Virus record (IMG/VR): IMGVR_UViG_3300035162_000578
Coordinates: 1-22,512 of that record
Length of the DNA stretch: 22,512 bases
Source: a virus
Direction: 5' to 3' (one strand)
The translations under genes were made by a program, and so were the position numbers. Shown piece after piece: positions 1-22,512 of the stretch; within the stretch, counting starts at the first letter, position 1; each line of letters starts with the position of its first letter. The notes under the pieces are model-generated. The model saw only the letters and a list, made by a program, of their open reading frames with translations, did no database searches and was not told the DNA's origin.

Positions 1-3000
1 ACTTCATCAATGCTTAGACCTTGGTTAAATAGTTCTAAACGTAGACCACTACCACCTTCAAATACACCATCACCATCGTCATCAGTAGGTAAAGTACCAA
101 TGGTAGTATCTATAGCAGTTATCTTATCGGCAGTGCTTTCCGCTAAGGTTTGGAATTCCCCTGCTAGTGTAAGAGCGTCACCTGCTAACTTGTTATAGTC
201 TCCCACCAAGCTATTATAATTTTCAGTGTTCTCTTCAAATAGTGCAAATATGCCAGAAGCGGGTCTTTGTGGGTTATCATCCGTAGCTTCGTCCTCAGAT
301 ACTGCAGGTTTACCTAAGTTAGTATCTAAGTAGTCTTTTATTTGCTGGTTGTCGTACCCTAATAACTCTAAGCTACGTAAGACCCCAGTGCCATCGTTAT
401 TAGAAAGCCCTGTTTCCTCGTCAAAAGTACTCTTAGTCCCTAGCTGCTCGAGTACTGCGTCGTCTCCTTGCTCAATAGCCAAGAATATACCCGAAGCGCC
501 TTCGTCACCTTCTGCACGCTTACCAATAACGTCTACTACATTGGTTTGTATGAAGTTGTTTACGTTGGTCTCTACAAAATTAATTCTGTTCGATAAAGAG
601 TCACTGCCGATTATTTGATTTCTACGCAACTCTTCCACTAATGCTGTAATAGAGTCTGGGTGTTGCTGTAAAAACAGTTGGTATGCCTCTAAAGAAGCTC
701 TGTCAGCATCAGATAAGGTGTTAGCAAAATTTAGGGCATCGTCATCCCTACCAGCTTTTACCAGCCCTTCAAACTCGATATACATGTCTCTACCCACTGA
801 CGCACCTGCGGGTATAGCGGGCATCAATGGCCCTATTACGTCTGTTTTTATCTTATCTACGGTAGCAGCATTAGCCGTGGTGCTTACCTTACTTATCTCC
901 GCATTCAAACTTTGCTGTAGTTGGTACAGCGCAATATCTCTCTCGGTACCTTGTAGTTGTAGCGCATTGTACATATCAGCATGGTACCCAGTAGGAGCAC
1001 CGCCCTCGGCAAACAAGGGTTTGCCCATATCGTCGAGTAGAACATCACCATCGTCACCGTACTGAAATACAGCAGGCGTTCCCACAGATGCAACTACCTG
1101 ATCCACTTTGGCTTGCATAGCTCCGGTAAGTGCTGTCTCAAATGCAGCAAAGTCTACGTAGTCGCCAAGTATGTTTTTAACGGCTTGTTCGGCACCAGTG
1201 CCTGCCGCGATTGCTTCCTCTACTTTGGCATATATACCTGTAGCGGACACCAAAACACCGTTATCATCCACATAACTTGGCGTGCCAAGGTTAGTTGTTA
1301 GGTTAGCAAGTGTAGTTTCTAGATTTTCAGGTATCTTTGCAGCCAATGTGTTTATTTCGGCTTCTAATGCCGTAGTATCTAAGTCTACGTTTGCCACAGC
1401 AGCATACAACCCTGTCGCATCCTTATCTCCAGCAGGACTCCCCACCAATGTATTTAGTGCAGCAATAGCTACGTCTTGTAACACACCCTGCGCAGTCAGC
1501 TCACCTAGTAGTCCAGACCCTGTACCTTCTTTTACAGTACCGTCGGCGTTAAGTTCTACAGCCGTACCGATAGCCTCGTCTATATAGGATACTAATGTAG
1601 CAGGGTCATCTTCCCCTAAACCTATTTCTTCTTTTAGGTCTTCTATTAACGCAAACACCCCTTCAGCTTCCGCAGCGTCGGGGTCTCCTACAATACTTTT
1701 AAACACATCTCCCACCAAAGTGCCTAGGGTATCAGACTCTACTAGACTATCTACCACTTCCGCAGCAAAATTGGCTTGGTTCTCAGCGTTTAAAAATGCA
1801 GTTTCTACCGCTGCAACTACCTGCGCATTCAATACGTTTTGGAAGGTTGGATCCGCCGACATAGCATTTATTATTTCTTGTTTTGTATATTGCGCGTCCA
1901 GCAACGTTTGTATGTTTGCTTTAAGTTGGTCTAACTCTTCATTAGTCATAAGTGATCCGCCTAATGTCTGTACAACGTCTGTAGGTACATGTTCTATAGT
2001 TCCCGCGTCTACGTCACGCCTGTAGTTGTCAAACAGTTCTCGTTCATATCTAGGTAAATTAAGTATATACGCATTGGCATCGTCATAAGTAACCGCAGCA
2101 TCTCCATCGTAATTAAAACTATTTGATAGAGGCACTAACCCATCTGCCATGTTCCGTACATGTTGTACTACATCAAAATGCTCTTCCGAAGTATACCCCG
2201 TTTTATTAGGTAAATCTTCATCGCCAAACGTACTAGCCCAATAATACGCCAAGTCATCATCTAAGTTAGAACCGTCAGCAATTGGAGTTGTGGTTGTTAT
2301 TTGCCCTGTATCAGCATCTATAGTAAGAGTAGAAGCAACTTGGTCTACAAAACCTTGGGTTGGAGTTAGTCCCATGCTCTCATAAGACTCTATTACTTCC
2401 GAAGAAGTCAAAATATAACTGTCGTCCGTGGCGTTTAGTAGCTCCATGTTCATAGGAATAACAGTAGCTAGTCCAACAGCAGCTATTAACTCACTAACCT
2501 TAGACACATCTCCCGACTCAACAGCTTGATATAATTCATAATCGGTAGTAACTAGCACCCTACCTAGAGGGTCGTTTATTTGGCTAGCAACCTGCGCTTG
2601 TGGGGTTAAGTACCCTAGTGGGGCTATAATCGCCGTAGCACCTGCATCTGCTATACTACCCACAGTCAGAGCTACGCCTACCTCAGCTGCCGCTGGGCGG
2701 TCAGTAAACCCTAAGTTATAGTATGCGTTCTCGGCATATCCCACAGTAAGGCCTTCTTGTATACCCCCTGCAAAACCTTCTTTGCCAATTACTCCTAAAT
2801 AATCACCAACAGTATTGCGGAGTAAATTTGTATCTTCCGCTACTAACTCTAGTGTATCTAGTCCAACATCACCAAAGAATTTTTTAGACAGTAGCTTATC
2901 TAAGCTGCCCTCAAATGGTAATGTAGCCAGCACCGTAGCCATAGCAAAAGTACCTGCATTTACAGAGGTGTCAAAAGCTATTTTGTTATACCCTTGCTCT

Positions 3001-6000
3001 AAACCTTCTCGGTACGTTTGTACCGCATCCTCGCCCTGATCTGCTATGTATTGCGGGGGATTTACATACTCGTCTTTAGTAAATAACAAAGACATAGTAG
3101 TGTCGTATACTTCCTCTACATTTTGTCCGTATTCCATCGCTACATCTTGCGCCACGCTAACAGTATAGACACCTGTGCCTATCTGAGCGGATGTCATGCT
3201 GGCAAGTATATTATCCGCCTGTCGCTTAGCTACTTCTTTAGTCACAAATCCTAACCCACCAGAGGTAGCTAGTTGTATAGCAGTCTCCCCGAGCTCTTGT
3301 ATTATAATTTCGTTCCAAAAAGCCCTTGGAGTAACCGCTATAGAACCGAATACTGCTACAACACCTTCACCAAAAGTCTCGGCCTCATCCCAACGAGCAT
3401 ACATCTCCTCTACTTCTTTTGTGTATGTCTCGGGTACGTACCCTTTGGCTACACCCTCTAGCATATTTAACGTACGGCTAAGTTCATTGTCCCTTAATGG
3501 AGAATAATCTATTTGCGCCATAAGTTCTTCAGTAACCTTAGCGCCTAGTTCTTTAGCTTCGTCGGTATCCATACCCTGCTGTATGGCGTTGAACATGGCT
3601 TTTTCGCCTTCCTTCCTAGCCCTACCTTCTTGTCCCGCCACACCAAAAGTTTGGTATATTGTGTTGTAAGCCCCTACTATGCTCTCTCCAACATTTATGA
3701 CGTTGTAAGCAGTCATTAACTGTCGGTCGGCTGTTTCGTAAGCGCCTCTAGTTTCTTCTAACTCTAATTCCTGTTCAGGGTTTAGTGGGCCTTCAAAAGA
3801 TTCTAGCTCTTCTACTTTAGCTAAGTATTCTTGGCGTGTTACCGCTATATCTTGCATATAGTCTCTAGAAACTCTTACTATCCAAGGTAACTCTGAGTCT
3901 GGCGTGCCAAATACAGTATCTGAGTAGTCAGGTATTTCAAAAGTCTCGCCTGTTTCTTCTTGTACCTTTGCTACCAAGTTAACCGCGGCGGCGTTGTCTT
4001 CAATCTCACCCAAGGTTTGTACATAGAATATAGGGTCTTCTGCGGCCAGCTGAGAAAGTGTTTTCCCCGGTACAGTGTCAACAACTTCCTGTAAACCTGT
4101 TAGGGCGTTATACTTAATCGTCTCGGTAGCGGCATCCCACGTATAATCTCCGTCTTCGTTCAACGAAACAAATAATTGCCCATCAATAAGGTCAGTGAGG
4201 TATTGGCTATACGCTGCTGGATCAACGGGAGCGCCAGTCTTAATATCTATAGGGGCGTATGCATTAGTAAACTGGTTAGCACGTAGCTCTAGAGCGTAGT
4301 TTTCTACGTCTCCCAAATTTGTAAAGTTTAGAGGTGCGCCTTCTGCGGTAATGTAAGACTGGTTGTACGCCTGCAATATGACATTATCAAACTCAGTCCC
4401 TGCCTTAAATCCATCGCGGTAGGTGGAGTCATCCCGCATAGTTTCTAACATTTGTAGGGGGGTAACGCCTTCGACACCGGCAAAGGTACTCACTTCGTTT
4501 AGTATTGCCTCCCGTATACTAGCTCGGCTGTTGGGCGCTAGGTAGGAAAAATTAATTCCCGAGTCTGCAACCACCTCATCCACAAACGCGTTAGTGGCCA
4601 TGCTTATTCTGGCATTATATTCTTCAACTGTGGTAGGCACACTGCCTACGTACCCTTCAGAAAGATAATGCCTAGCAGCATCAGCTAGCGTAGCGTCTGC
4701 TCCTAACCCATTGACCTGCGCATATTGTGGCCAGTTCGTAACAAAATCTTCATTCAATTCAGCAGATACCGCAACGTACATGTTAGAAAATTCTAGTTGT
4801 AATTTAGGGTCGGTGTCTCGAGAGTATTGTTCTAGATCTTCTACGGCTTGCGTGTACACGGAGACTGCCTGATCGTATTCACCTTCTATATCAGCTAAGG
4901 TACCTTTCTTATCATTTAAATCCGATTGTAACTCAGGCAAAACATTTATAAAGTCTGCTGCGTACTGCTCATATCGGGCGATGTCAACAGCGCTAGCGTC
5001 GGCGGATATAGCTATTTCGTATAACCGGCTTAATTCTGTTTGTCGGGTGTTTATATCCCCGGTTATAAGGCCTATTTCTCCTATAACCACACGCATGTCT
5101 TCATCTTTGCCGTTTGCTATTGCCGCGGCTTCTTCAACACGTCTTCGTTCCCCAGAAATATTATCTTGGAATTGACTTATTTCTCGGGTTAATCCCTCAA
5201 TGCCCCCAGCATCTGCCGCATATTTAATGGCATTCGCCGTTGATGTAGCAATGGTTTGTATAAACGTGTCACCGACACTCCCACCGGCAAGACCCATGTT
5301 TATGGATGCACGCATGGCGGTAGTCAATACTCCCGGGCCAATAGCGGTTAATACGTCTTTTGTCTTGCCTTCACTTGTTTCTATTAGCTCGTTTACTGTT
5401 TCTGCGGTTATAAGCTCTTTAGTAAATGCTGTATTTAGGCCTTGGGACTCTATCTCCCCATTAACAATGAGCTGGGCCACACTATTCTCTACAGCCTTCT
5501 TAGAGGCATCCGGTAGGTTAGCAAACGAAAGTTTAGACTTTTCTTCTAGGCCCTCGACAATAGCGGTTATTTGATTCTCTATTCCCTCGGGAAGTCCGTC
5601 GGGGAACAAATCCACTACTCCCTCTACGGCTAACTCTATGCGACTGCCCGCACCTTTTACCAGCTCTACTAACGGCGCTACAACTACATCATCAACAACC
5701 TCTAGCCCTTTCTCCGCTAAAGCTAATATAGGATCTACAGTATCTTCCACATCGTCTAATATTTCTCCTAATCCTCTTATGAAATCTTCTGGCACTAGAT
5801 CAAGCACCGCATCAAGAGCATCGCCCAACTGACTTTCGTTGAATAAATCACCTACCGCCGAAATAGCAGGGCCTAAATCAGATAAAAAGTTATCAACTAC
5901 TAGTTTTACTTCGCTCACTAGGTCGTTATCAGATATGTATTCCGCAAAAAACTCTACTCCGCCTTCTTTTAACGCCTCAGTAAACGTTTTGCCGTCCATG

Positions 6001-9000
6001 CGAGCAGTCAATAACTTGGTAAACCCTTTTTGCACAGGTTCGCTCATGTTAGTGTAAAAAGAAGTATCTACTCCTAGGTTCGAAAACCCTTTTTCTAGGT
6101 AGTCTGGGCCAAACGCGGTAAAAATTGCCGTGCCAATATCCTCCCCACCCGCCGCGTTTATAAGAACTACCGTTTGTTTTGCCGTTAACCCTGCTATACC
6201 TATACCATTAATAGTAGTTGTGTATTCGGCGGCGTAAGCAGCGTCGCCCACACCAGCGAGAGCCTGCCCACTAAGATTACCCGATTTGGCAATGGCTTCG
6301 TCTCTAGCGGCTTCACCTGCAACCTCAGCTTCGGCTTTAGTACCGCCCGGTTTTAGCTTACCACCTACTTTTAAACCCGCGGTTACAATATTTATCCAGT
6401 CACCTGTTTTTAATGTCGCGCCATCAAGGGCTCGTATTCCCTGAAGTACTAAATAAGTTGCAGGGCTTACCATGGCTAAAGCACTGCTAAAAAGTTGACC
6501 TACAGGGCTAGACCAACCACTTTGTTCTTCTACAAACGGAGGTTGCGCAACGTACATCATAGTGTACGAACCTATTGGTGCCATACCATTAGATATATCT
6601 ACCCACACCCCACCATCAGGAGCGTTTTCTGTATACGAGCCTGCGGGATAACCACCCTGCGAAGTATCCCAAGCTGATGCGGAGTAAAGGCCTGCAGCAT
6701 GGCCCCCTACCATCCTAGTAGCCCGTATCGATCTGGTTTCCCCCATCTCTGCCCAAGTCTTAGTTATATAGTCATTAGGATTAGGTGCTTCAGCCGCAGC
6801 AGCTTGAGCTTGAGCTTCTGTTTTTCCTTCTTTTATTGCTTTTTGGTACGCTCGGTAAGGAGCATCCATATCTATATAGTCAAATTGAGCGCCCAGTGGC
6901 ACACCCGTATCTGAGGAAAAAAGATCACCGACTGGTTGTTGGGCTGAGTCTCTCTCTTTTGGTGCTGAAGAAGGTAGTTTCATATATAGCCGAGAAGTAT
7001 CTCTCCACAACTCACCGCTATCTTCCCCTCCCGGCCATAACTTCGCTTGGTTTTCTTCTGGCACTTCCATGTACATCGGGGGTTCAAACCTAGCTACTAC
7101 CGAAGAGTTGTATGCGTTTATCCACCGTTCGTCATAAAACAACGCATCTTGCATGATTGTGGGGTACCCGTCATCAGTCCCAAAAGTGGTGGGGGGCACA
7201 AAGTCCATACCTGTATAAGACGTTTGTAGGTTACTCCACGCATTATACCCATCACCCATATAGGGGGCAGAACGCTCTATCGCGTATTTAAGCTGCCTAT
7301 CCATCTCCAGATTAACCGCGTTAGATGTAATCGCTTGATACTCGGGTTGGTCGGTTCGTTCTTCAACATACCATACATCCTGCATACCTATAATAGAGTT
7401 AGATCTTTTTAACTCGTTCAGTAATGTGTCTGTACCTACGGATACGCTTTCTCCTTGCTCGGCAACCGTAGCGTTAAATCCTACCTCAGCAAGTTTATTA
7501 GTCTCTGCTATAATGCTAAGCGCACCAAACTCTAGATACTCTCCCGAATGATAGCTCGTTAGCGCATCCGATAACTCTTTTGCAGATTTTTTCTCGGGAT
7601 CTGTGCCTTTAAACCCGTCACTCCACGCCTTAATACTCTCTGGGTCAACTCTCTCTAGACCCCCCGCTGATATTATTTTTGCATCCCCTATAGTAGCTAT
7701 TAAGTCGTCTAATACATTTGGGGTGGGGTTATATACGTCTCGGTCGTAAAACATATCTTGCAAGAGTGGGTCTAGGCTAGCAAGCCATGTGTTAGCAGCA
7801 TACGCATTATCTACACCAAAAGCGGGCGTTCTTATCATAAAATAAGCGTCTACTATATCCTGCACATCGGGTATCTCATCTGCCCCACGTATTAGCCCTG
7901 CCGTAGGGTCTTCAGCACGTACCGGAACCCCGTTCTCTTCCGCAATATAATTGTATTTAGTCTCAAACCCCTCTAAAAGGCTTATAGCACTGCCGTCGGG
8001 GTTTTCGCCTGTCTGTATGTCGAAGGTTATAGCTTGTCCGGCATTAGTAGCGCCGGCTTCCCATAAAACCCCCTGAGAATGATCTTTCACATACTGGTCG
8101 GCGGCTATCCTACGTCGGTTTGCAGTCGATAGGTAATCTACGTCAGGATGCATGGTCATAGATACAGCAGTACCTGCGGCCTTGGCATCAAGGAATCTTT
8201 GCTCTTTCTCGTAATATGCTCCCGACACGTTTCTTACTATCTCTACTATCTCAGAAGGGTCTTGTCTCTCCGCGGCTTCCTTACTAGAGTAGTAAACTAA
8301 GACATCGTCTTGTGGGAATAGTGGGTTGTATGTCCCACTTGTACCTTCTGATGGCACACCGCCGGACATGTTAAAGTCATAAAGTTTGGGCATCTGCGCC
8401 GCCCTAGTCATAACGTTATACTCACCGTTAAAAATTATAGGCATGGCGCCTGCCCTAAGCATACTTTCATTTCTGGGGTCAAATAAAGTGTAGTCGTTTC
8501 CGTTACTCCCAAACCAAAAATCGTAAACGTTAGCTATGCTTATAGGTTCTGTTACTTCGTTTCCGTCAACGTCTTCGTAAGTGTATTCTTGAGCATCCCA
8601 TATATACCCATAGTCGCCAAAAGACCCACTCATATTGGAAAAGGGTTGAGTTCCTACAGATAATTCACCCATATCCACCAACCTAGAATCACCAGACGTG
8701 GAACCACCAAACAGGGGAGATCTAGGGTCTTGAACGGTTTTAGCCCCACCCATTATGCGTTTCCACCCTTCGTACAACTCGTCAGCTGTGAGCGGTCGCT
8801 CATACCCTTGGTACAGTATGGCATTAGTGCCAGTTGATAGTCCTTGCCCGTTTTCAAATTGGGCTATGCTATCTATGCCCAATATTTCTTTTAATTCGTC
8901 TGTATTTTGATGGTTGTACGTTTCATCGTCTTTGTGCAAATAGAAACGTTCTGAGTATTCTTTTTCTCTTTTTTCAACTTCCTCATACGCAGCCCCTGTA

Positions 9001-10733
9001 GCGTGCGATGTGCCATTATCAACAGGCTCCGCTCCTCTAGGGACAGGAGTTTCAGCCACAGGGTCAGCTTCCGTTTTATTGGGGTCGTAGGGGAACGCAT
9101 CAATGTTATCCGCAACCCCGTCCTTATCAAAGTCGGGGGCTTCGGTTTTAGTTTCGTCTTCGGGGTAGAAGTCGGTGTTGTCACCGGTACCGTCATTGTC
9201 AGTATCAGTAGTCTCAGAATCATCGTTCGGGAACGCATCTGCATTGTCACCAGTTCCGTCATTGTCAGAATCAGTAGACTCTGAAGCATCATTCGGGAAC
9301 GCGTCTGCATTATCACCTACACCATCATTGTCGCTATCAGCAGTTTCTGAGGCATCGTTCGGGAAATCGTCATCTACATCAAATACCCCGTCACCGTCAG
9401 AGTCTACGCGGTCTGGATCAGCTACGGTAACATCAGGATCCTGTTCATTGTCACCTAACCTATCTCCGTCACTGTCTGCCCATTCTGTAGATAAATAAGG
9501 AAATGCATCCTCTGAGTTGAGTACTCCATCCCCGTCCAAATCATTGTTTGGAGCTTTCCAGCTTAGGTTTAATGCTTGGCCAAGGGTAACGTCGGACGTG
9601 TAGTCCATACTGTTACCAAATAGTATTTCGTCCCACTCGTACTCAGATAACAAGACATTTTCGTTCGCCTCATCATTGGGGTTCTCATTTATATCCTTAA
9701 AGTCGTATGCAGCTACTACCTCATACCAGTCGGCAATTCCGTCTTTGTCGGTATCATAGGTAAATAAGTTTTGAGGGTCGTAGTCTTCAGGACTTACAAA
9801 CGCATCGCCAAGATCCTGCGGACTATAAAGACCGTTACCCTCAAAATAATCTGCTGACTGCAGGTATGAGCTTAGGAAATAGTTTTCGTAGGATAGGTCA
9901 GATTTTATGTCTGGGTTGTAGGGGGCAGGATCAAACTCGTCTATTGTGCCATCATTATCACTGTCTAGCTCAGGTTCTGGCTCAGGTTCTGGCTCAGGAG
10001 AAAAAAGGGTGTCTTCTTTAAATCCAGCATAGTCCCCATCACGATAAGCGTTAGATAGTAAACCAAAATCGGCATCATCGACTTCACCATCGCCGTTTAC
10101 ATCATATTTAGCTTCTTGTTCGTCGGTCAGGGTTGCACCCGCTGCTAGGTAATCAGCTACTGCGTCTACATCTCCAAGAGTTACTGGGTTGGCTACTACA
10201 GGTTCTGGTTCTGGCTCGGCTACTACAGGTTCTGGTTCTGGCTCGGCTGTTGGATCTGTTACGCCGTAGTTACCCTCGTCATCTTTAGGGACTTGTTGTA
10301 GGACATTTATAGCGTTATCTAGGTTAGCAATGACCTCTTCTGATGTGGCTGTGGGTACCTTAACCCCTTCTTCATTTTCAGTGCTGCTTATTCCCCCTTT
10401 TGTTACCGCGTCGCCTGTCAAACCAAAACTGTGCCTAAGAAGCATCAGGCCGTCAGTTAGAGCGTCTAGATCCCCACTGTTATCAAGGTCAAATGCTTTA
10501 TATAATTCTGATTCTTCGTGCGATTTAACCCAGTCAAGGTATTCTAGTACTTCTTCCGCCGTACGTGTAGCGTCGCCGGCTAGAGCCCCTTGTGTTACCC
10601 CGTCACCCGACAAACCAAATAAATACCTAAGCACCATCAACCCGTCAGTAAGGGCATCTACTACGCCGTTCTGATCTAGATCAAGAGGAGAATAGGTGCC
10701 GTCTGTACGTGAAAGTTCTTCTGGGTTAGACAT
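1..10733 (-). CDS. Giant multidomain putative virion protein, C-terminus beyond window
   Basis: Open for 3577 codons from ATG at 10733 to the left edge without a stop, so only the N-terminal part is seen. An AGGGA ribosome site lies five bases upstream. Approximate layout by residue: 18-150, two dockerin-type-I-like repeats; 162-260, Pro-Glu linkers and a third EF-hand-like segment; 397-550, TSP3-like repeats rich in DxDxDG; 550-1400, mixed Tyr/Trp-rich globular region; 1400-1530 and 2590-2720, isolated hydrophobic stretches; 1620-1970, long helical region ending in coiled coil; 3005 to the edge, repeats of an '[IL]GxP...GxG[IL][YF]A' unit. I recognise no polymerase, lysozyme or protease motif. 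It follows the tail and fibre genes on the same strand, so a structural or ejected virion role is inferred. The size resembles giant phage core proteins or fibres, but no specific family can be named. The frame is certain, the function is not. Confidence 0.93.
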   Translation of the reverse strand, partial: MSNPEELSRTDGTYSPLDLDQNGVVDALTDGLMVLRYLFGLSGDGVTQGALAGDATRTAEEVLEYLDWVKSHEESELYKAFDLDNSGDLDALTDGLMLLRHSFGLTGDAVTKGGISSTENEEGVKVPTATSEEVIANLDNAINVLQQVPKDDEGNYGVTDPTAEPEPEPVVAEPEPEPVVANPVTLGDVDAVADYLAAGATLTDEQEAKYDVNGDGEVDDADFGLLSNAYRDGDYAGFKEDTLFSPEPEPEPEPELDSDNDGTIDEFDPAPYNPDIKSDLSYENYFLSSYLQSADYFEGNGLYSPQDLGDAFVSPEDYDPQNLFTYDTDKDGIADWYEVVAAYDFKDINENPNDEANENVLLSEYEWDEILFGNSMDYTSDVTLGQALNLSWKAPNNDLDGDGVLNSEDAFPYLSTEWADSDGDRLGDNEQDPDVTVADPDRVDSDGDGVFDVDDDFPNDASETADSDNDGVGDNADAFPNDASESTDSDNDGTGDNADAFPNDDSETTDTDNDGTGDNTDFYPEDETKTEAPDFDKDGVADNIDAFPYDPNKTEADPVAETPVPRGAEPVDNGTSHATGAAYEEVEKREKEYSERFYLHKDDETYNHQNTDELKEILGIDSIAQFENGQGLSTGTNAILYQGYERPLTADELYEGWKRIMGGAKTVQDPRSPLFGGSTSGDSRLVDMGELSVGTQPFSNMSGSFGDYGYIWDAQEYTYEDVDGNEVTEPISIANVYDFWFGSNGNDYTLFDPRNESMLRAGAMPIIFNGEYNVMTRAAQMPKLYDFNMSGGVPSEGTSGTYNPLFPQDDVLVYYSSKEAAERQDPSEIVEIVRNVSGAYYEKEQRFLDAKAAGTAVSMTMHPDVDYLSTANRRRIAADQYVKDHSQGVLWEAGATNAGQAITFDIQTGENPDGSAISLLEGFETKYNYIAEENGVPVRAEDPTAGLIRGADEIPDVQDIVDAYFMIRTPAFGVDNAYAANTWLASLDPLLQDMFYDRDVYNPTPNVLDDLIATIGDAKIISAGGLERVDPESIKAWSDGFKGTDPEKKSAKELSDALTSYHSGEYLEFGALSIIAETNKLAEVGFNATVAEQGESVSVGTDTLLNELKRSNSIIGMQDVWYVEERTDQPEYQAITSNAVNLEMDRQLKYAIERSAPYMGDGYNAWSNLQTSYTGMDFVPPTTFGTDDGYPTIMQDALFYDERWINAYNSSVVARFEPPMYMEVPEENQAKLWPGGEDSGELWRDTSRLYMKLPSSAPKERDSAQQPVGDLFSSDTGVPLGAQFDYIDMDAPYRAYQKAIKEGKTEAQAQAAAAEAPNPNDYITKTWAEMGETRSIRATRMVGGHAAGLYSASAWDTSQGGYPAGSYTENAPDGGVWVDISNGMAPIGSYTMMYVAQPPFVEEQSGWSSPVGQLFSSALAMVSPATYLVLQGIRALDGATLKTGDWINIVTAGLKVGGKLKPGGTKAEAEVAGEAARDEAIAKSGNLSGQALAGVGDAAYAAEYTTTINGIGIAGLTAKQTVVLINAAGGEDIGTAIFTAFGPDYLEKGFSNLGVDTSFYTNMSEPVQKGFTKLLTARMDGKTFTEALKEGGVEFFAEYISDNDLVSEVKLVVDNFLSDLGPAISAVGDLFNESQLGDALDAVLDLVPEDFIRGLGEILDDVEDTVDPILALAEKGLEVVDDVVVAPLVELVKGAGSRIELAVEGVVDLFPDGLPEGIENQITAIVEGLEEKSKLSFANLPDASKKAVENSVAQLIVNGEIESQGLNTAFTKELITAETVNELIETSEGKTKDVLTAIGPGVLTTAMRASINMGLAGGSVGDTFIQTIATSTANAIKYAADAGGIEGLTREISQFQDNISGERRRVEEAAAIANGKDEDMRVVIGEIGLITGDINTRQTELSRLYEIAISADASAVDIARYEQYAADFINVLPELQSDLNDKKGTLADIEGEYDQAVSVYTQAVEDLEQYSRDTDPKLQLEFSNMYVAVSAELNEDFVTNWPQYAQVNGLGADATLADAARHYLSEGYVGSVPTTVEEYNARISMATNAFVDEVVADSGINFSYLAPNSRASIREAILNEVSTFAGVEGVTPLQMLETMRDDSTYRDGFKAGTEFDNVILQAYNQSYITAEGAPLNFTNLGDVENYALELRANQFTNAYAPIDIKTGAPVDPAAYSQYLTDLIDGQLFVSLNEDGDYTWDAATETIKYNALTGLQEVVDTVPGKTLSQLAAEDPIFYVQTLGEIEDNAAAVNLVAKVQEETGETFEIPDYSDTVFGTPDSELPWIVRVSRDYMQDIAVTRQEYLAKVEELESFEGPLNPEQELELEETRGAYETADRQLMTAYNVINVGESIVGAYNTIYQTFGVAGQEGRARKEGEKAMFNAIQQGMDTDEAKELGAKVTEELMAQIDYSPLRDNELSRTLNMLEGVAKGYVPETYTKEVEEMYARWDEAETFGEGVVAVFGSIAVTPRAFWNEIIIQELGETAIQLATSGGLGFVTKEVAKRQADNILASMTSAQIGTGVYTVSVAQDVAMEYGQNVEEVYDTTMSLLFTKDEYVNPPQYIADQGEDAVQTYREGLEQGYNKIAFDTSVNAGTFAMATVLATLPFEGSLDKLLSKKFFGDVGLDTLELVAEDTNLLRNTVGDYLGVIGKEGFAGGIQEGLTVGYAENAYYNLGFTDRPAAAEVGVALTVGSIADAGATAIIAPLGYLTPQAQVASQINDPLGRVLVTTDYELYQAVESGDVSKVSELIAAVGLATVIPMNMELLNATDDSYILTSSEVIESYESMGLTPTQGFVDQVASTLTIDADTGQITTTTPIADGSNLDDDLAYYWASTFGDEDLPNKTGYTSEEHFDVVQHVRNMADGLVPLSNSFNYDGDAAVTYDDANAYILNLPRYERELFDNYRRDVDAGTIEHVPTDVVQTLGGSLMTNEELDQLKANIQTLLDAQYTKQEIINAMSADPTFQNVLNAQVVAAVETAFLNAENQANFAAEVVDSLVESDTLGTLVGDVFKSIVGDPDAAEAEGVFALIEDLKEEIGLGEDDPATLVSYIDEAIGTAVELNADGTVKEGTGSGLLGELTAQGVLQDVAIAALNTLVGSPAGDKDATGLYAAVANVDLDTTALEAEINTLAAKIPENLETTLANLTTNLGTPSYVDDNGVLVSATGIYAKVEEAIAAGTGAEQAVKNILGDYVDFAAFETALTGAMQAKVDQVVASVGTPAVFQYGDDGDVLLDDMGKPLFAEGGAPTGYHADMYNALQLQGTERDIALYQLQQSLNAEISKVSTTANAATVDKIKTDVIGPLMPAIPAGASVGRDMYIEFEGLVKAGRDDDALNFANTLSDADRASLEAYQLFLQQHPDSITALVEELRRNQIIGSDSLSNRINFVETNVNNFIQTNVVDVIGKRAEGDEGASGIFLAIEQGDDAVLEQLGTKSTFDEETGLSNNDGTGVLRSLELLGYDNQQIKDYLDTNLGKPAVSEDEATDDNPQRPASGIFALFEENTENYNSLVGDYNKLAGDALTLAGEFQTLAESTADKITAIDTTIGTLPTDDDGDGVFEGGSGLRLELFNQGLSIDE
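20..1692 (-). repeat. Degenerate '[IL]GxP ... GxG[IL][YF]A' repeat family at the visible C-terminal end
   Basis: About eight variants of one unit occur in the giant protein: near 1636-1692 (VGDP...EGVFALIE), 1390-1450 (VGSPAGDKDATGLYAAV), 1212-1293 (LGTPSYVDD...ATGIYAKVE), 963-1092 (VGTPAV...), 465-531 (IGKRAEGDEGASGIFLAIE), 361-450 (LGTKS...GTGVL), 235-327 (LGKPAV...ASGIFALFE) and 20-117 (IGTLPTDDDGDG...GSGL). Helical, heptad-like segments separate the units. Spacing varies from about 90 to 190 bp, so the repeat is visible only at protein level. It probably continues beyond the window. Confidence 0.7.
4825..5860 (-). other. Helical and coiled-coil body segment of giant protein
   Basis: Residues about 1625-1970 are rich in Glu, Leu, Ala, Val and Lys, with few aromatics. 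They begin with amphipathic helices containing many valines and end (about 4825-5215) in heptad-like text with charged runs such as SGERRRVEEAAAIANGK. This resembles coiled-coil regions of phage core or tape-like proteins. It is assigned by eye from composition; no prediction was run. Confidence 0.5.
9085..9545 (-). repeat. TSP3-like acidic tandem repeats, partly 66-bp units
   Basis: This part of the giant gene encodes a series of DSDNDGxGDNADAFPNDxSE-like units, the pattern of thrombospondin type 3 / OmpA-linker calcium-binding repeats. Around 9175-9380 at least three successive units keep an exact 66-bp (22-residue) period at DNA level. The 'tcacc' anchor recurs at 9181, 9247 and 9313. Flanking units are more divergent and of variable length. 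Family knowledge predicts a calcium-stiffened rod-like spacer. The surrounding opposite-strand frames are by-products of this skewed composition. Confidence 0.85.
10192..10247 (-). repeat. Pro-Glu linker direct repeats
   Basis: An in-frame direct repeat of about 27 bp, encoding EPEPEPVVA twice, joins the dockerin-like repeats to the next segment of the giant protein. A related Pro-Glu run (SPEPEPEPEPEL) lies at about 9964-10001. Such runs are typical extended, rigid linkers between domains. Short identical units at DNA level suggest slippage-prone sequence. Confidence 0.8.
10389..10682 (-). other. Two dockerin type I-like repeats in giant protein
   Basis: Residues 18-51 and 82-115 of the giant protein carry the same pattern: DLDxxGxxDALTDGLMxLR, then xFGLxGDxVTxG. 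Each is followed by a T/E-rich stretch before a short helix. The spacing of D18, D20, N22 and D26 matches a Ca-binding loop followed by the LTDGL helix of marine bacterial dockerin-like repeats. Classical dockerins bind cohesins as a duplicated pair, and here too there are two copies about 64 residues apart. A third, weaker loop (DVNGDGEVDDADFG) lies near 10056-10103. No cohesin partner is visible in the window. Confidence 0.75.
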
Positions 10734-10738
10734 TGAAA

Positions 10739-10743
10739 TCCCT
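10739..10743 (-). promoter_or_regulatory. Ribosome binding site of the giant gene
   Basis: AGGGA on the minus strand ends five bases before the ATG at 10733. It overlaps the TAG stop codon of the 75-residue gene upstream. This fixes the giant gene's start and suggests it is translated from the same message. Confidence 0.7.
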
Positions 10744-10969
10744 ATGCTGGGTCAAGAAATGCGAATTTAGTATATATTCTGTTTCCGTCTTCGTCGTCTT
10801 CCCCAGCATACTGCTGCATAAATAGGGTATCTATATCAGTTCTTACAGATAACGACGTTTGAAGCGTAGCCATAGCAGCATTAGCTGTAGGCATATCATC
10901 TTCAACTGTAGAGTCTACTACATCTACAGGCTCATTAGCTACTAATTTCGTGTATCCTACTTGTATCAT
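10742..10969 (-). CDS. Small acidic protein of unknown function
   Basis: A 75-residue protein, acidic overall, with no signal peptide or membrane segment. The middle is Ala/Thr-rich (TANAAMATLQTSLSVRTDID) and probably helical. The end has a DDEDG turn followed by an aromatic tail (YTKFAFLDPA). I do not recognise the family. Its ATG overlaps the TGA of the fibre gene (ATGA), and its stop touches the ribosome site of the giant gene eight bases before that start. Position suggests a partner, chaperone or assembly factor for the fibre or giant protein, but this is inferred from context only. Confidence 0.75.
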   Translation of the reverse strand: MIQVGYTKLVANEPVDVVDSTVEDDMPTANAAMATLQTSLSVRTDIDTLFMQQYAGEDDEDGNRIYTKFAFLDPA

Positions 10970-19660: not shown

Positions 19661-20383
19661 TTACTCCTGTCTTTGTGGTGGTTGTGTAGGAATAGGGATT
19701 GGCTTGGGTGGCTGCCCTTTAGGCCTAAATGAGTCAGACTTTAGGCGTATATCCACCGTATTTTGCATTTGTTGTAAGGCCAATACAAACTGTTGTTCAT
19801 ACATCTGCACCATATCTGGTTCCGCTTTCATAAATTTAGCGGCCTCTACCAATACACCATTTAGCAAGGCGGTGTCGTAATTAGTGCCTAACCAAGGCTG
19901 TTCTTCATCACCATCAGTATCTACTATAGACCGTGGGTGGTATTGATACTCCACATCTAAAGTAACACTTGCGTCCCACTTGGGGGCAAGTATGAGAGTC
20001 ATACGGCTAGCTTCTTGGTTTGCTGTAGCATCAGAGTCTAACGCGTAATATTTTATTTCTACGTTGCCATCAACCACCGTTTCAGAAGTAAGTGGGTATG
20101 CTTCAAACAAAAAATCACGGGCTTTCTGCATTATGGCTTTGCGGTTAGTGTTGGTGTGTTGCACTACACTATGTACATATAAACAGTCTGCAGGCAATAC
20201 GTATTCAGCCGTAGCGCTAACCGATTGTCCCGCCAAAGTCTTTCTTAGTATAGGCAAATCTTTGATAATGCCATATACACGCTGCTCAACCTGCTTTGTA
20301 AACATAGATAGCTGTGCATCAGTAAAAGACATCTCAGTAATGTCTTGCACGTTAGTCTTTAATTCTGTGTATGTCATAGCCAT
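19661..20383 (-). CDS. SU10-like head-to-tail adaptor
   Basis: A 240-residue protein with the order typical of phiSU10-type adaptors: MTYTELKTNVQDIT, then FTDAQLSMFTKQVEQRVYGI (helix facing the portal), DLPILRKTLAG, YVLPADCLYVHSV, EIKYYALD, LDVEYQYHPRSIV, WLGTNYDTALLNGVLVEAAK, and a closing helix around MVQMYEQQFV. The tail (about 220-240) is Pro-rich and probably flexible. Adaptors form a ring below the portal and connect it to the tail nozzle, here probably the gp10-like protein. It follows the zinc-type protein with a single spacer base and precedes the small structural protein by three. Length is normal for the family. Confidence 0.85.
   Translation of the reverse strand: MAMTYTELKTNVQDITEMSFTDAQLSMFTKQVEQRVYGIIKDLPILRKTLAGQSVSATAEYVLPADCLYVHSVVQHTNTNRKAIMQKARDFLFEAYPLTSETVVDGNVEIKYYALDSDATANQEASRMTLILAPKWDASVTLDVEYQYHPRSIVDTDGDEEQPWLGTNYDTALLNGVLVEAAKFMKAEPDMVQMYEQQFVLALQQMQNTVDIRLKSDSFRPKGQPPKPIPIPTQPPQRQE
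19663..19668 (-). promoter_or_regulatory. Ribosome binding site for the 140-residue structural protein
   Basis: AGGAGT on the minus strand overlaps the last codons of the adaptor gene and is well spaced from the ATG at 19657. Confidence 0.7.
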
Positions 20384-20384
20384 A

Positions 20385-20726
20385 TTATTCTACCGTCACC
20401 GTAACTGTTCCTATTTTAACTTCCATAGCCATATTAGGCCCTGAACCTACTGGACTCCAACCCCAGTCTACCGCTCGACTACTGGTATCAGATGAATCAG
20501 CACTTAAACTCTGGTCTGGGCGCGGGTTGCGTAATGCTTGTGGATCGTTTACTGGGTACTCACCCTGCATATTCTGTGGGTGGTCTGGATCCCAACATGA
20601 GTTACAAGCCAATAAACTAGTACCCTGTCGCTTGACTATTACTTCCTTCATATCTCGTAACTTAGTACGAAATCCACATATATCACAGAAGCCAAACGCT
20701 TTTTTACCAGTAGCAAACTTCTTCAT
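20385..20726 (-). CDS. Putative zinc-binding phage structural protein
   Basis: A 113-residue protein. Two CxxC pairs (C14/C17 in FCDICGF and C41/C44 in ACNSCWD) with 23 residues between them form a probable single zinc ribbon. This is followed by DPDHPQ and a Pro/Asn-rich linker, then a disordered Ser/Asp stretch and a short hydrophobic C-terminus (AMEVKIGTVTVTVE). I know similar small proteins between the two adaptor-like genes of marine podoviruses, where some members lack the cysteines. It probably helps head-tail joining; a DNA-binding role is an alternative. The ATG overlaps the upstream stop as TAATG. Confidence 0.85.
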   Translation of the reverse strand: MKKFATGKKAFGFCDICGFRTKLRDMKEVIVKRQGTSLLACNSCWDPDHPQNMQGEYPVNDPQALRNPRPDQSLSADSSDTSSRAVDWGWSPVGSGPNMAMEVKIGTVTVTVE

Positions 20727-21418
20727 TAGGGGTATCCAATACGCGGTACAAACCTAGCTGAAGTCTTATCTCTATCTTCCGAAGCAGCTAACTGAAACTG
20801 CTCGTCATAAATGTTTTTTAACATCATAACCCTGTCAGACAATTCGGGAGTCTTCATAGCTATGTAATATGCTAAACCCGCTACTAAACAAGGTAAAAAT
20901 CTAAAGGGCATATCAGCGTCATACGCGCCTTCACCTGCATCGTCTATACGCTTTAGGTAGTAATACTTTAAGGTATACGTATTATCTTTATCTGGCACAG
21001 GCCACACATTAACTACCGGTGCACCTATGCCTCTATCAATCCAAACTTGTGTAGGTCTACCTTGTGTTAACTTGTTAGGGATACCGCTGTAGGTACTCAC
21101 ACTGACACGTGTTAGGGGGAGATCATTTTGTGTGGCTTGCACCCCGTCGTTAGTCCGTATGTTTTGTTCTATAACATCTATCACATCACTAGCTAACGTA
21201 TATTGAGTTGTACCTTTAGTTAGTGCTACTGACGTTGCTTCTTTGATAGTCCACAAGTTAATACCACGATTTGCCCACTCCATAGTAAGCAAGTTCATAG
21301 ATCGTCTAGCTGTTCTTAGGTCATACCCAGAACGCATCTCACGTCCGGCACGCTCCCATGCTTCCTCAGCAATCTCTGGGAAGTCCATGTTAAATGATGT
21401 AGTACCTGATGTAGCCAT
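20726..21418 (-). CDS. Adaptor-like / tail accessory structural protein
   Basis: A 230-residue protein. The N-terminal part (FNMDFPEIAEEAWERAG, MRSGYDLRTARRSMNLL, EWANRGINLWT) is a pattern I associate with head-tail connector proteins of marine podoviruses, comparable in position to P22 gp4 or T7 gp11. A beta-rich core follows (TKGTTQYTLASDVIDVIEQN, QVWIDRGIGAPVVNVWPVP, YTLKYYYLKRID). A helical C-terminus (FRFLPCLVAGLAYYIAMK, RVMMLKNIYDEQF) ends it. It is the first of the head-tail genes after the small basic proteins and overlaps its neighbours by one base on both sides. Family membership is likely, the exact position in the tail inferred. Confidence 0.82.
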   Translation of the reverse strand: MATSGTTSFNMDFPEIAEEAWERAGREMRSGYDLRTARRSMNLLTMEWANRGINLWTIKEATSVALTKGTTQYTLASDVIDVIEQNIRTNDGVQATQNDLPLTRVSVSTYSGIPNKLTQGRPTQVWIDRGIGAPVVNVWPVPDKDNTYTLKYYYLKRIDDAGEGAYDADMPFRFLPCLVAGLAYYIAMKTPELSDRVMMLKNIYDEQFQLAASEDRDKTSARFVPRIGYP

Positions 21419-21588
21419 TACTTACCTACCTTCTTCATAGCTGTTTTATGCGATTCGCTAAAACTAGCGCCTTTCTTCATGTCTTTCTTCATTTCATCCG
21501 TGTGCTTTTTGCTATGGTGCACAGAATGCTTTTTCAAAGTAGTCTTTTGTCGTTTAGTTAATCCGCCTTTCTTAAAGTATCTACGCAT
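21418..21588 (-). CDS. Small basic protein, MRRYFKKGG type
   Basis: A 56-residue protein, about one third Lys or Arg with several His. It starts MRRYFKKGGLTKRQKTTLKK and ends with HSVHHSKKHTDEMKKDMKKG followed by FSESHKTAMKKVGK. The overlapping junctions on both sides (TGATG before it, TAATG after it) and the start shared with the next two upstream genes show it is real despite its length. It has no membrane segment or signal peptide. High positive charge suggests binding to DNA, RNA or an acidic capsid surface. I recognise no named family. Confidence 0.82.
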   Translation of the reverse strand: MRRYFKKGGLTKRQKTTLKKHSVHHSKKHTDEMKKDMKKGASFSESHKTAMKKVGK

Positions 21589-21890
21589 CACTTGCCTCTA
21601 CGTTTTAGCGACTTTACTCTGCGTGGAGCACCTGCAGGTTGCCCTAAACTTTTCTTTTCTCTTACCTTCTTACTCTTCTCAGAACCAGACATCTCGCCTG
21701 ACGTTTTAGGAGTCTTAGAAGATACACGTTTACTAGGGCGACAGTATGGCGTACCACGACCATCACCTTTCTTTCTACCACAAGCCTTACCGGTACTAAC
21801 GTCTTTCCAATCTTCCTTGAACCAACGCTTTAACGCAGCACCCTTCGCTGTTTTGCGAATCTTACCACCAGACTTATAGTACCTACGCAT
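21588..21890 (-). CDS. DUF5872-like basic protein
   Basis: A 100-residue, strongly basic protein. It starts MRRYYKSGGKIRKT and then has RWFKEDWKDVSTGKACGRK with DGRGTPYCRPSKRVS (about residues 22-56). This Trp/Cys/Gly pattern resembles the DUF5872 family found in phages and some large viruses, as I recall it. Two cysteines about 12 residues apart are conserved in that pattern. The rest is Lys/Ser-rich and disordered, ending in SLKRRGK. Function is unknown; basic charge and late position suggest a packaged or assembly-associated protein. It overlaps both neighbours by one base. Confidence 0.85.
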   Translation of the reverse strand: MRRYYKSGGKIRKTAKGAALKRWFKEDWKDVSTGKACGRKKGDGRGTPYCRPSKRVSSKTPKTSGEMSGSEKSKKVREKKSLGQPAGAPRRVKSLKRRGK

Positions 21891-22027
21891 TACTTACCAG
21901 CCTTTTTCTTCCGGCATTTAGCGATAGCCCCAGATGCATATGCAGAAGGGAAGACCTTGTAGCTGGCCTTCACCTTCTTGTAGCATGAGTCCTTTACGGT
22001 ACCACCTTTTTTGTAGTACCTACGCAT
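21890..22027 (-). CDS. Small basic protein with SCYKKVK...YASGAIAKCRK pattern
   Basis: A 45-residue protein starting MRRYYKKGGTVKDSCYKKVK and ending ASGAIAKCRKKKAGK, with a central YKVFPSAYASG. Two cysteines bracket the core. I recall similar short cores in marine phages and large viruses, often near DUF5872 proteins, but cannot name a family. One-base overlaps (TAATG) on both sides confirm that the gene belongs to the chain. It has no membrane segment and probably works with its two sister proteins that share the N-terminal motif. Confidence 0.82.
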   Translation of the reverse strand: MRRYYKKGGTVKDSCYKKVKASYKVFPSAYASGAIAKCRKKKAGK

Positions 22028-22485
22028 TAACGCATCTTACACTGTTTAACGCCTTGTTTAGCAATGCCCGCACCACGAACGTTACCACCAGACTTATAAG
22101 TTTTGGCTTTCTTCTTAACTTTACCGCCTTTCTTCATCATAGGCATAGGTGGCTTAGGAGGCATACCCATACCACCCGGAGCACCGCCCATTGGAGGCTT
22201 AGGAGCACCGCCCATACCGCCCATACCGCCCATACCGCCCATTGGAGGCTTAGGAGCACTCGGAGGAGCAGCTTGCGGTTTTGGTACCGGCATAGTATTG
22301 TTTGCAGCTGTAGGCATAGATGCTTTAGCTGGGTTTTTACTAGGCCCTGAAGCCTTCATACCTAGCTCTTCCAAAGACTTACCTTTAGCGGTTCTAGTCT
22401 TTCCGGGAGCCTTAACCTTCTTTTTCTTGTCTTTCTTTTTAACATCACCACCTTTTTGGTAGCCCATCATTTTTGTACCCGGCAC
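22027..22485 (-). CDS. Low-complexity Lys/Gly/Pro/Met-rich basic protein; start uncertain
   Basis: A 152-residue protein from a GTG at 22485. A Lys-rich head (residues 1-36, with YQKGGDV) is followed by a Pro/Ala linker and a Gly-Met-Pro region (79-113) with GGM repeats. Then come MKKGGKVKKK and a C-terminal YKSGGNVRGAGIAKQG ending in VKQCKMR. GGAGGT six bases before the GTG is a near-perfect ribosome site. The same frame, however, stays open to the right edge of the window, so the protein could be longer. Proteins with this composition and ending are, in my recollection, frequent beside head genes of marine phages. Role unknown, perhaps DNA or capsid binding. Confidence 0.8.
   Translation of the reverse strand: MPGTKMMGYQKGGDVKKKDKKKKVKAPGKTRTAKGKSLEELGMKASGPSKNPAKASMPTAANNTMPVPKPQAAPPSAPKPPMGGMGGMGGMGGAPKPPMGGAPGGMGMPPKPPMPMMKKGGKVKKKAKTYKSGGNVRGAGIAKQGVKQCKMR
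22147..22251 (-). repeat. Gly-Met-Gly / Lys-Pro-Pro low-complexity repeats
   Basis: Within the preceding basic protein, a 9-bp unit (gccgcccat on the plus strand, encoding MGG) recurs four times near 22209-22240. It is flanked by two copies of a KPPMGG block. The block is slippage-prone and likely to vary in length between relatives. Confidence 0.75.
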
Positions 22486-22491
22486 TTTAAC

Positions 22492-22497
22492 ACCTCC
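22492..22497 (-). promoter_or_regulatory. Ribosome binding site supporting the GTG start
   Basis: GGAGGT on the minus strand lies six bases before the GTG at 22485. Read in frame it would encode part of SAGGVKV, so it may instead be coding sequence of a longer gene that starts beyond the window. Confidence 0.55.
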
Positions 22498-22512
22498 AGC
22501 GCTTACGCGCTT

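Follow-up and report, generated by a model that had tools for sequence, protein, structure and literature searches.

A nine-residue N-terminal tag on unrelated small basic proteins of marine phages, a candidate capsid-targeting signal

In this work we describe a nine-residue N-terminal tag, MRRYYKxGG, carried by small basic proteins that are encoded beside the head genes of many uncultured, mostly marine phages. Comparison of tagged and untagged sequences indicates that the tag is a discrete and optional module at the protein level. The reading that we tentatively favour is that it may be a capsid-targeting tag, comparable in action to the capsid targeting sequence (CTS) of T4 and unrelated to it in sequence. 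In the literature searched, we found no description of the tag and no mention of DUF6321, one of the families that carry it; DUF5872, another of them, is named once, in a single paper.

The window, that is the whole stretch of DNA analysed (22,512 nucleotides), is a 22.5-kb IMG/VR virus contig that encodes its structural proteins on the minus strand. Four small basic genes lie at 21418–22485 on this strand, each sharing one base with the next (TAATG), and the cluster runs into the gene of an SU10-type head–tail adaptor (20726–21418, minus strand; PF24175, E 1.1e-13), which is directly downstream and places the cluster within the head module. Gene 1 (21418–21588, minus strand; 56 amino acids, phrog_31838) encodes the tag MRRYFKKGG (21562–21588) followed by an HSVHHSKKH module, and its start is most likely the ATG at 21588 rather than the GTG that precedes it. 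Gene 2 (21588–21890, minus strand; 100 amino acids) joins MRRYYKSGG (21864–21890) to the second half of DUF5872, and gene 3 (21890–22027, minus strand; 45 amino acids) joins MRRYYKKGG (22001–22027) to an FPSAYASG module. Gene 4 (22027–22485, minus strand; 152 amino acids, GTG start at 22485) encodes a low-complexity basic protein rich in Gly, Met and Pro, with internal xKGG motifs. The last seven codons and the stop of a further gene (ARKRWRC*) are found at 22487–22510 on the minus strand, cut by the contig end; they probably encode the C-terminus of a DUF6321 protein, so the window edge would remove most of a fifth member of the cluster. In relatives the order of genes is the same, and a DUF6321 gene, usually tagged, adjoins the counterpart of gene 4. 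Elsewhere in the window, a second SU10-type adaptor gene (19661–20383, minus strand) lies near the one at 20726–21418, and between them is a small CxxC-rich gene whose weak PHD-finger match stays under the cut-off. An ORF of at least 3583 amino acids (3–10751, minus strand) runs off the contig end and is giant tail- or adhesin-like by size and place.

An earlier note on this DNA had pointed out that three consecutive genes open with MRRY[YF]K[KS]GG, and had read this as a short tag shared by different proteins rather than as paralogy. Both points are borne out. At the DNA level, M-R-R-Y-[YF]-K-x-G-G has exactly three matches in the window (21563–21588, 21865–21890 and 22002–22027, minus strand), placed at the ATG start codons of three genes in a row, and none in 100 dinucleotide shuffles. 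Once the tag is removed, the tag-bearing proteins form six clusters, which rules out whole-length paralogy and agrees with the note's statement that the remainders of the three proteins are unrelated. Motifs of the same kind inside the fourth protein were also located where the note had seen them (YQKGGDV, 22441–22461; MKKGGKV, 22117–22137; YKSGGNV, 22078–22098). Nor is the motif absent or random in relatives: in IMG/VR the prefix is found on at least six unrelated families of small basic proteins. A degenerate DNA pattern of the tag matched at least 120 IMG/VR stretches, and in its general form the motif reads MRxYY and [YFM]KxGG, with or without a Cys-rich insert between them. The tag pattern was matched 15 times in nine long contigs, and the reversed control pattern not once. 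The motif [YF]K[KSAT]GG was counted 248 times in pattern-selected loci versus 4.25 in shuffled proteins, a ratio that is inflated because the loci were picked by the motif itself. When loci were picked via the adaptor gene alone, the cluster and the tag were still present, the latter in forms that include MRNDYGVCYKYKKGG and MRKDYKKSCGCGKKRGYKKGG.

The modularity of the tag is best seen where the same cargo exists with and without it, cut at one place, as in MAVRKTAK|GAALKRWF versus MRTYYKSGGKVRKTAK|GAALKRWF; homologues of gene 2 that begin with MAVRKTAK do not have the tag, and untagged homologues of gene 1 open with MRKKISARQKATLKKHS. In searches with tag-free cargo bodies, tagged and untagged members of several families share the same junction. 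According to our own classifier, the tag or a close variant is present in 14 of the 80 DUF5872-C members and in five of the 80 phrog_7595 members. When one cargo of a contig is tagged the others tend to be tagged too (two-by-two counts 21, 4/21, 93 and 3, 9/0, 82), with p-values that are inflated because contigs share ancestry. The tag codons vary at every degenerate position, and this free variation rules out a DNA- or RNA-level element. Where tags on two cargos from the same contig have a residue in common, the codon is identical in 44.5% of cases, versus 41% for random tags; this is barely above random, and the tag copies are therefore old, which also excludes that the tag was recently copied from gene to gene in one genome. 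The residue identity of pattern-selected tags is there by construction and was not counted as evidence.

The six clusters of tag-stripped cargos are PSAYA, DUF6321, phrog_7595, DUF5872-C joined with phrog_14910, phrog_31838 and phrog_17747. The proteins of this cluster should not be called otherwise unknown. The gene 2 product matches Pfam DUF5872 (PF19197) over the second half of the family with 50.9 bits, well above the cut-off of 27.5 (E 2.8e-13), while gene 3 matches the first half weakly, with 14.9 bits, below the gathering threshold of 27.5. The pair thus resembles a DUF5872 divided between two genes, and, in contrast with the Pfam family, each half here would have its own tag. The cut-off neighbour, by its seven codons and the gene order of relatives, probably belongs to DUF6321 (PF19846), to which tagged proteins of relatives match with 69.8 and 50.4 bits (cut-off 28.5). 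Gene 3 also aligns with inner segments of large cyanophage proteins, those of phrog_727, phrog_38880 and phrog_3477. No solved relative of three cargos was found in the PDB by sequence, and a fold search with the gene 3 model gave no match. AlphaFold models the tag as disordered (pLDDT <50), gene 3 as a two-helix hairpin (mean pLDDT 70) and gene 2 with low confidence throughout (mean pLDDT 63).

MRRYYKxGG is not the only recurring element in these loci. A second prefix, MMK[SC]RGMG...KKGG, is found on PSAYAS, DUF6321, phrog_17747-like and further cargo. Gene 4 ends in YKSGGNVRGAGIAKQGVKQCKMR (22030–22098, minus strand), another recurrent element, this one C-terminal (GGKVRGAGIAxKGVRxxKMR; other forms end in ARGPMA), and variants of it close 251 distinct proteins in related loci. 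The bodies of these proteins form 20 clusters, although the count of truly unrelated bodies is uncertain because one cluster consists of 125 low-complexity members. Relatives of gene 4 open with MPGKKMMGYKKGG, and gene-4-like proteins repeat a KGYKxGGK unit many times. Finally, in two- and three-module fusions [KN]xGG precedes each module, and the fused modules HMMYDKKTG and VVKGLEKASKTHAKQ also exist as single genes elsewhere. An xGG before each module can be seen in the fusions at L421:1299 (minus strand), L390:2683 and L377:2724 (minus strand).

The earlier note had proposed to look for co-location with head genes, and in a 66-kb near relative the tagged cluster does lie between the major capsid protein (MCP) gene and the adaptor gene. 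The order in this relative is TerL, portal, a 64-aa gene, GroES, a 336-aa protein (phrog_28737), 151 aa, 205 aa, MCP, 154 aa, 100 aa, tagged cluster and adaptor; the 336-aa protein may be the scaffold, a guess based on its position. The GroES-like co-chaperonin gene of this relative (L334:2604–3023) stands between the portal and capsid genes, and Pelagibacter phage HTVC027P also has an annotated GroES gene, close to its capsid gene and its small basic genes. Among the isolates looked at, HTVC027P comes closest to having the tag, its gp50 opening with MRSYYSEGG. All nine long tagged contigs encode a Phage_capsid_4 MCP. The tag is not tied to a special capsid type, a proposal ruled out by the presence of Phage_capsid_4 in tagged and in many untagged contigs. 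The tag is absent from sister contigs that have this cargo and an MCP of the same family; packaging, if it happens, therefore does not generally require it. The marine isolates P-SCSP2, MED4-184, MEP401, CRP-7 and HTVC033P also encode these cargo modules, mostly next to head genes, but in contrast with the phages described here they have no common N-terminal tag. In P-SCSP2, MED4-184, MEP401 and CRP-7 the untagged cargo is in runs of small genes next to the scaffold, MCP, portal or terminase gene.

Relatives of the cargos are also encoded by T4-like cyanophages, where PSAYASG, DUF6321 and DUF5872-C-like modules are shared by T4-GC 119, phrog_727, 3477 and 38880, and ORF137 and ORF160 of S-CREM2; several of these genes lie between the terminase and the head or tail genes. 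In these phages the modules are strung in one chain, and by eye some of the separators, as well as the N-termini of the module proteins, are T4 CTS-like, whereas in the phages studied here the modules are separate genes with MRRYYKxGG. The virion proteins of S-CREM2 identified by mass spectrometry include ORF160 and ORF137 (PMC10665884, Table 3, coordinates). ORF160 (128342–129235) contains a PSAYASG module (profile E 2e-21) and a weak DUF5872-C-like module (E 0.003), and ORF137 (108049–109521) has DUF6321 at its end (E 7e-22); the peptides detected may stem from parts of the chains outside the cargo modules. The record of phage S-E7 labels its T4-GC 119 protein, which has cargo modules, as structural. 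In siphovirus P-SS2, used as a second check against a virion proteome, no cargo module was found in the first 50 kb. The N-terminus of S-CREM2 gp160, GATGFTGAAAPEGPVAGYDPLM (L172:24643–25536), is closely like the start of the MCP, GADGFTGAAAPGGPNAGFDPVM (L172:14782–16152), past the presumed propeptide, as if a capsid segment had been grafted onto a module protein.

The T4 CTS has a MKTYQEFIAEA-like sequence, to which MRRYYKxGG has no resemblance by inspection. The parallel lies elsewhere: in both cases small basic phage proteins that are otherwise unrelated have in common a short peptide, about ten residues long, at the N-terminus. In T4 this peptide is borne by the internal proteins IPI, IPII and IPIII (PMC3012670, PMC7697877, PMC10229621), can bring nearly any protein into the head, and is taken off afterwards by a maturation protease (PMC7697877, PMC10229621). 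Unlike T4, the phages described here have a Phage_capsid_4 MCP. By analogy with T4, we propose that MRRYYKxGG is a modular short linear motif that would direct small proteins rich in lysine into the phage head while the prohead is being assembled. The disordered N-terminus would be bound by a head component, which could be the scaffold, the portal or the inner capsid surface, and GG would act as a flexible hinge. The tagged cargos would then sit in the virion, where they may bind the packaged DNA or leave with it on ejection.

Such receptor-type targeting is the reading that we prefer to three others. In its favour we count the shared junctions, the free codon variation, the joint tagging of cargos, the head-gene context, the S-CREM2 virion proteins, the CTS-like elements of the cyanophage module proteins and the modelled disorder of the tag; the untagged sister contigs speak against it. 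The tag could instead be a cationic nucleic-acid-binding tail, in which RRYYK and a Gly–Gly hinge raise the DNA affinity of virion or nucleoid-like proteins, as one unit of the KGYKxGGK repeats, so that proteins enter the head on DNA and not via a receptor. That tag and cargo are both basic, that gene-4-like proteins carry many repeats of the unit, and that the cargo of relatives works without the tag, as expected if the tag merely adds affinity, all agree with this idea. We nevertheless consider it unlikely, as the conserved Y, Y and GG and the N-terminal position go beyond what charge needs, and any Lys/Arg-rich stretch could stand in for RRYYK, yet its residues persist while the codons vary.

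A lower probability is given to KxGG as a processing or joint site, at which modules made singly or as strings would be freed by a protease cutting after GG. The fusions in which each module follows [KN]xGG, two of whose modules are separate genes elsewhere, would fit, as would the CTS-like elements between some cyanophage modules and the observation that GG is the least variable portion of the prefix in a cargo-selected alignment. The residue after GG is unconstrained, however (K, T, G, S or L), and a fusion scar would leave the same pattern. In addition, searches of tagged contigs for S78, ClpP and C39 proteases, whose controls worked, gave no match, the one for the double-glycine peptidase C39 covering ten contigs. 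For S77 (gp21-type) prohead proteases there was no match and the control was silent too, and the control was also silent for C48. Least probable, in our view, is that the tag is functionless in itself, a common start region spread by recombination among small overlapping genes. The one-base overlaps at TAATG, the gain and loss of prefixes between relatives and the similar spread of the second prefix over several cargos are what such shuffling would leave behind; nevertheless, the residues persist though synonymous sites are near the random level, so selection on the peptide is needed.

In a wider and more doubtful form, head targeting by MRRYYKxGG would be part of a second, independent capsid-targeting code, in which exchangeable small basic virion proteins of marine phages are addressed to the head by interchangeable short tags (MRRYYKxGG, MMK[SC]RGMG..KKGG and the C-terminal xxGGKVRGAGIAxKGVRxxKMR), T4-like cyanophages having some of the modules joined in single chains that include CTS-like elements. 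A nine-residue transferable tag is easily mutated or put on a reporter, which would make the in-head role of these proteins directly testable. If head targeting is true, phages beyond the T4 group would have a capsid-loading tag of general use, and a role would be found for uncharacterised families that are widespread in marine phages, DUF5872, DUF6321 and several PHROGs.
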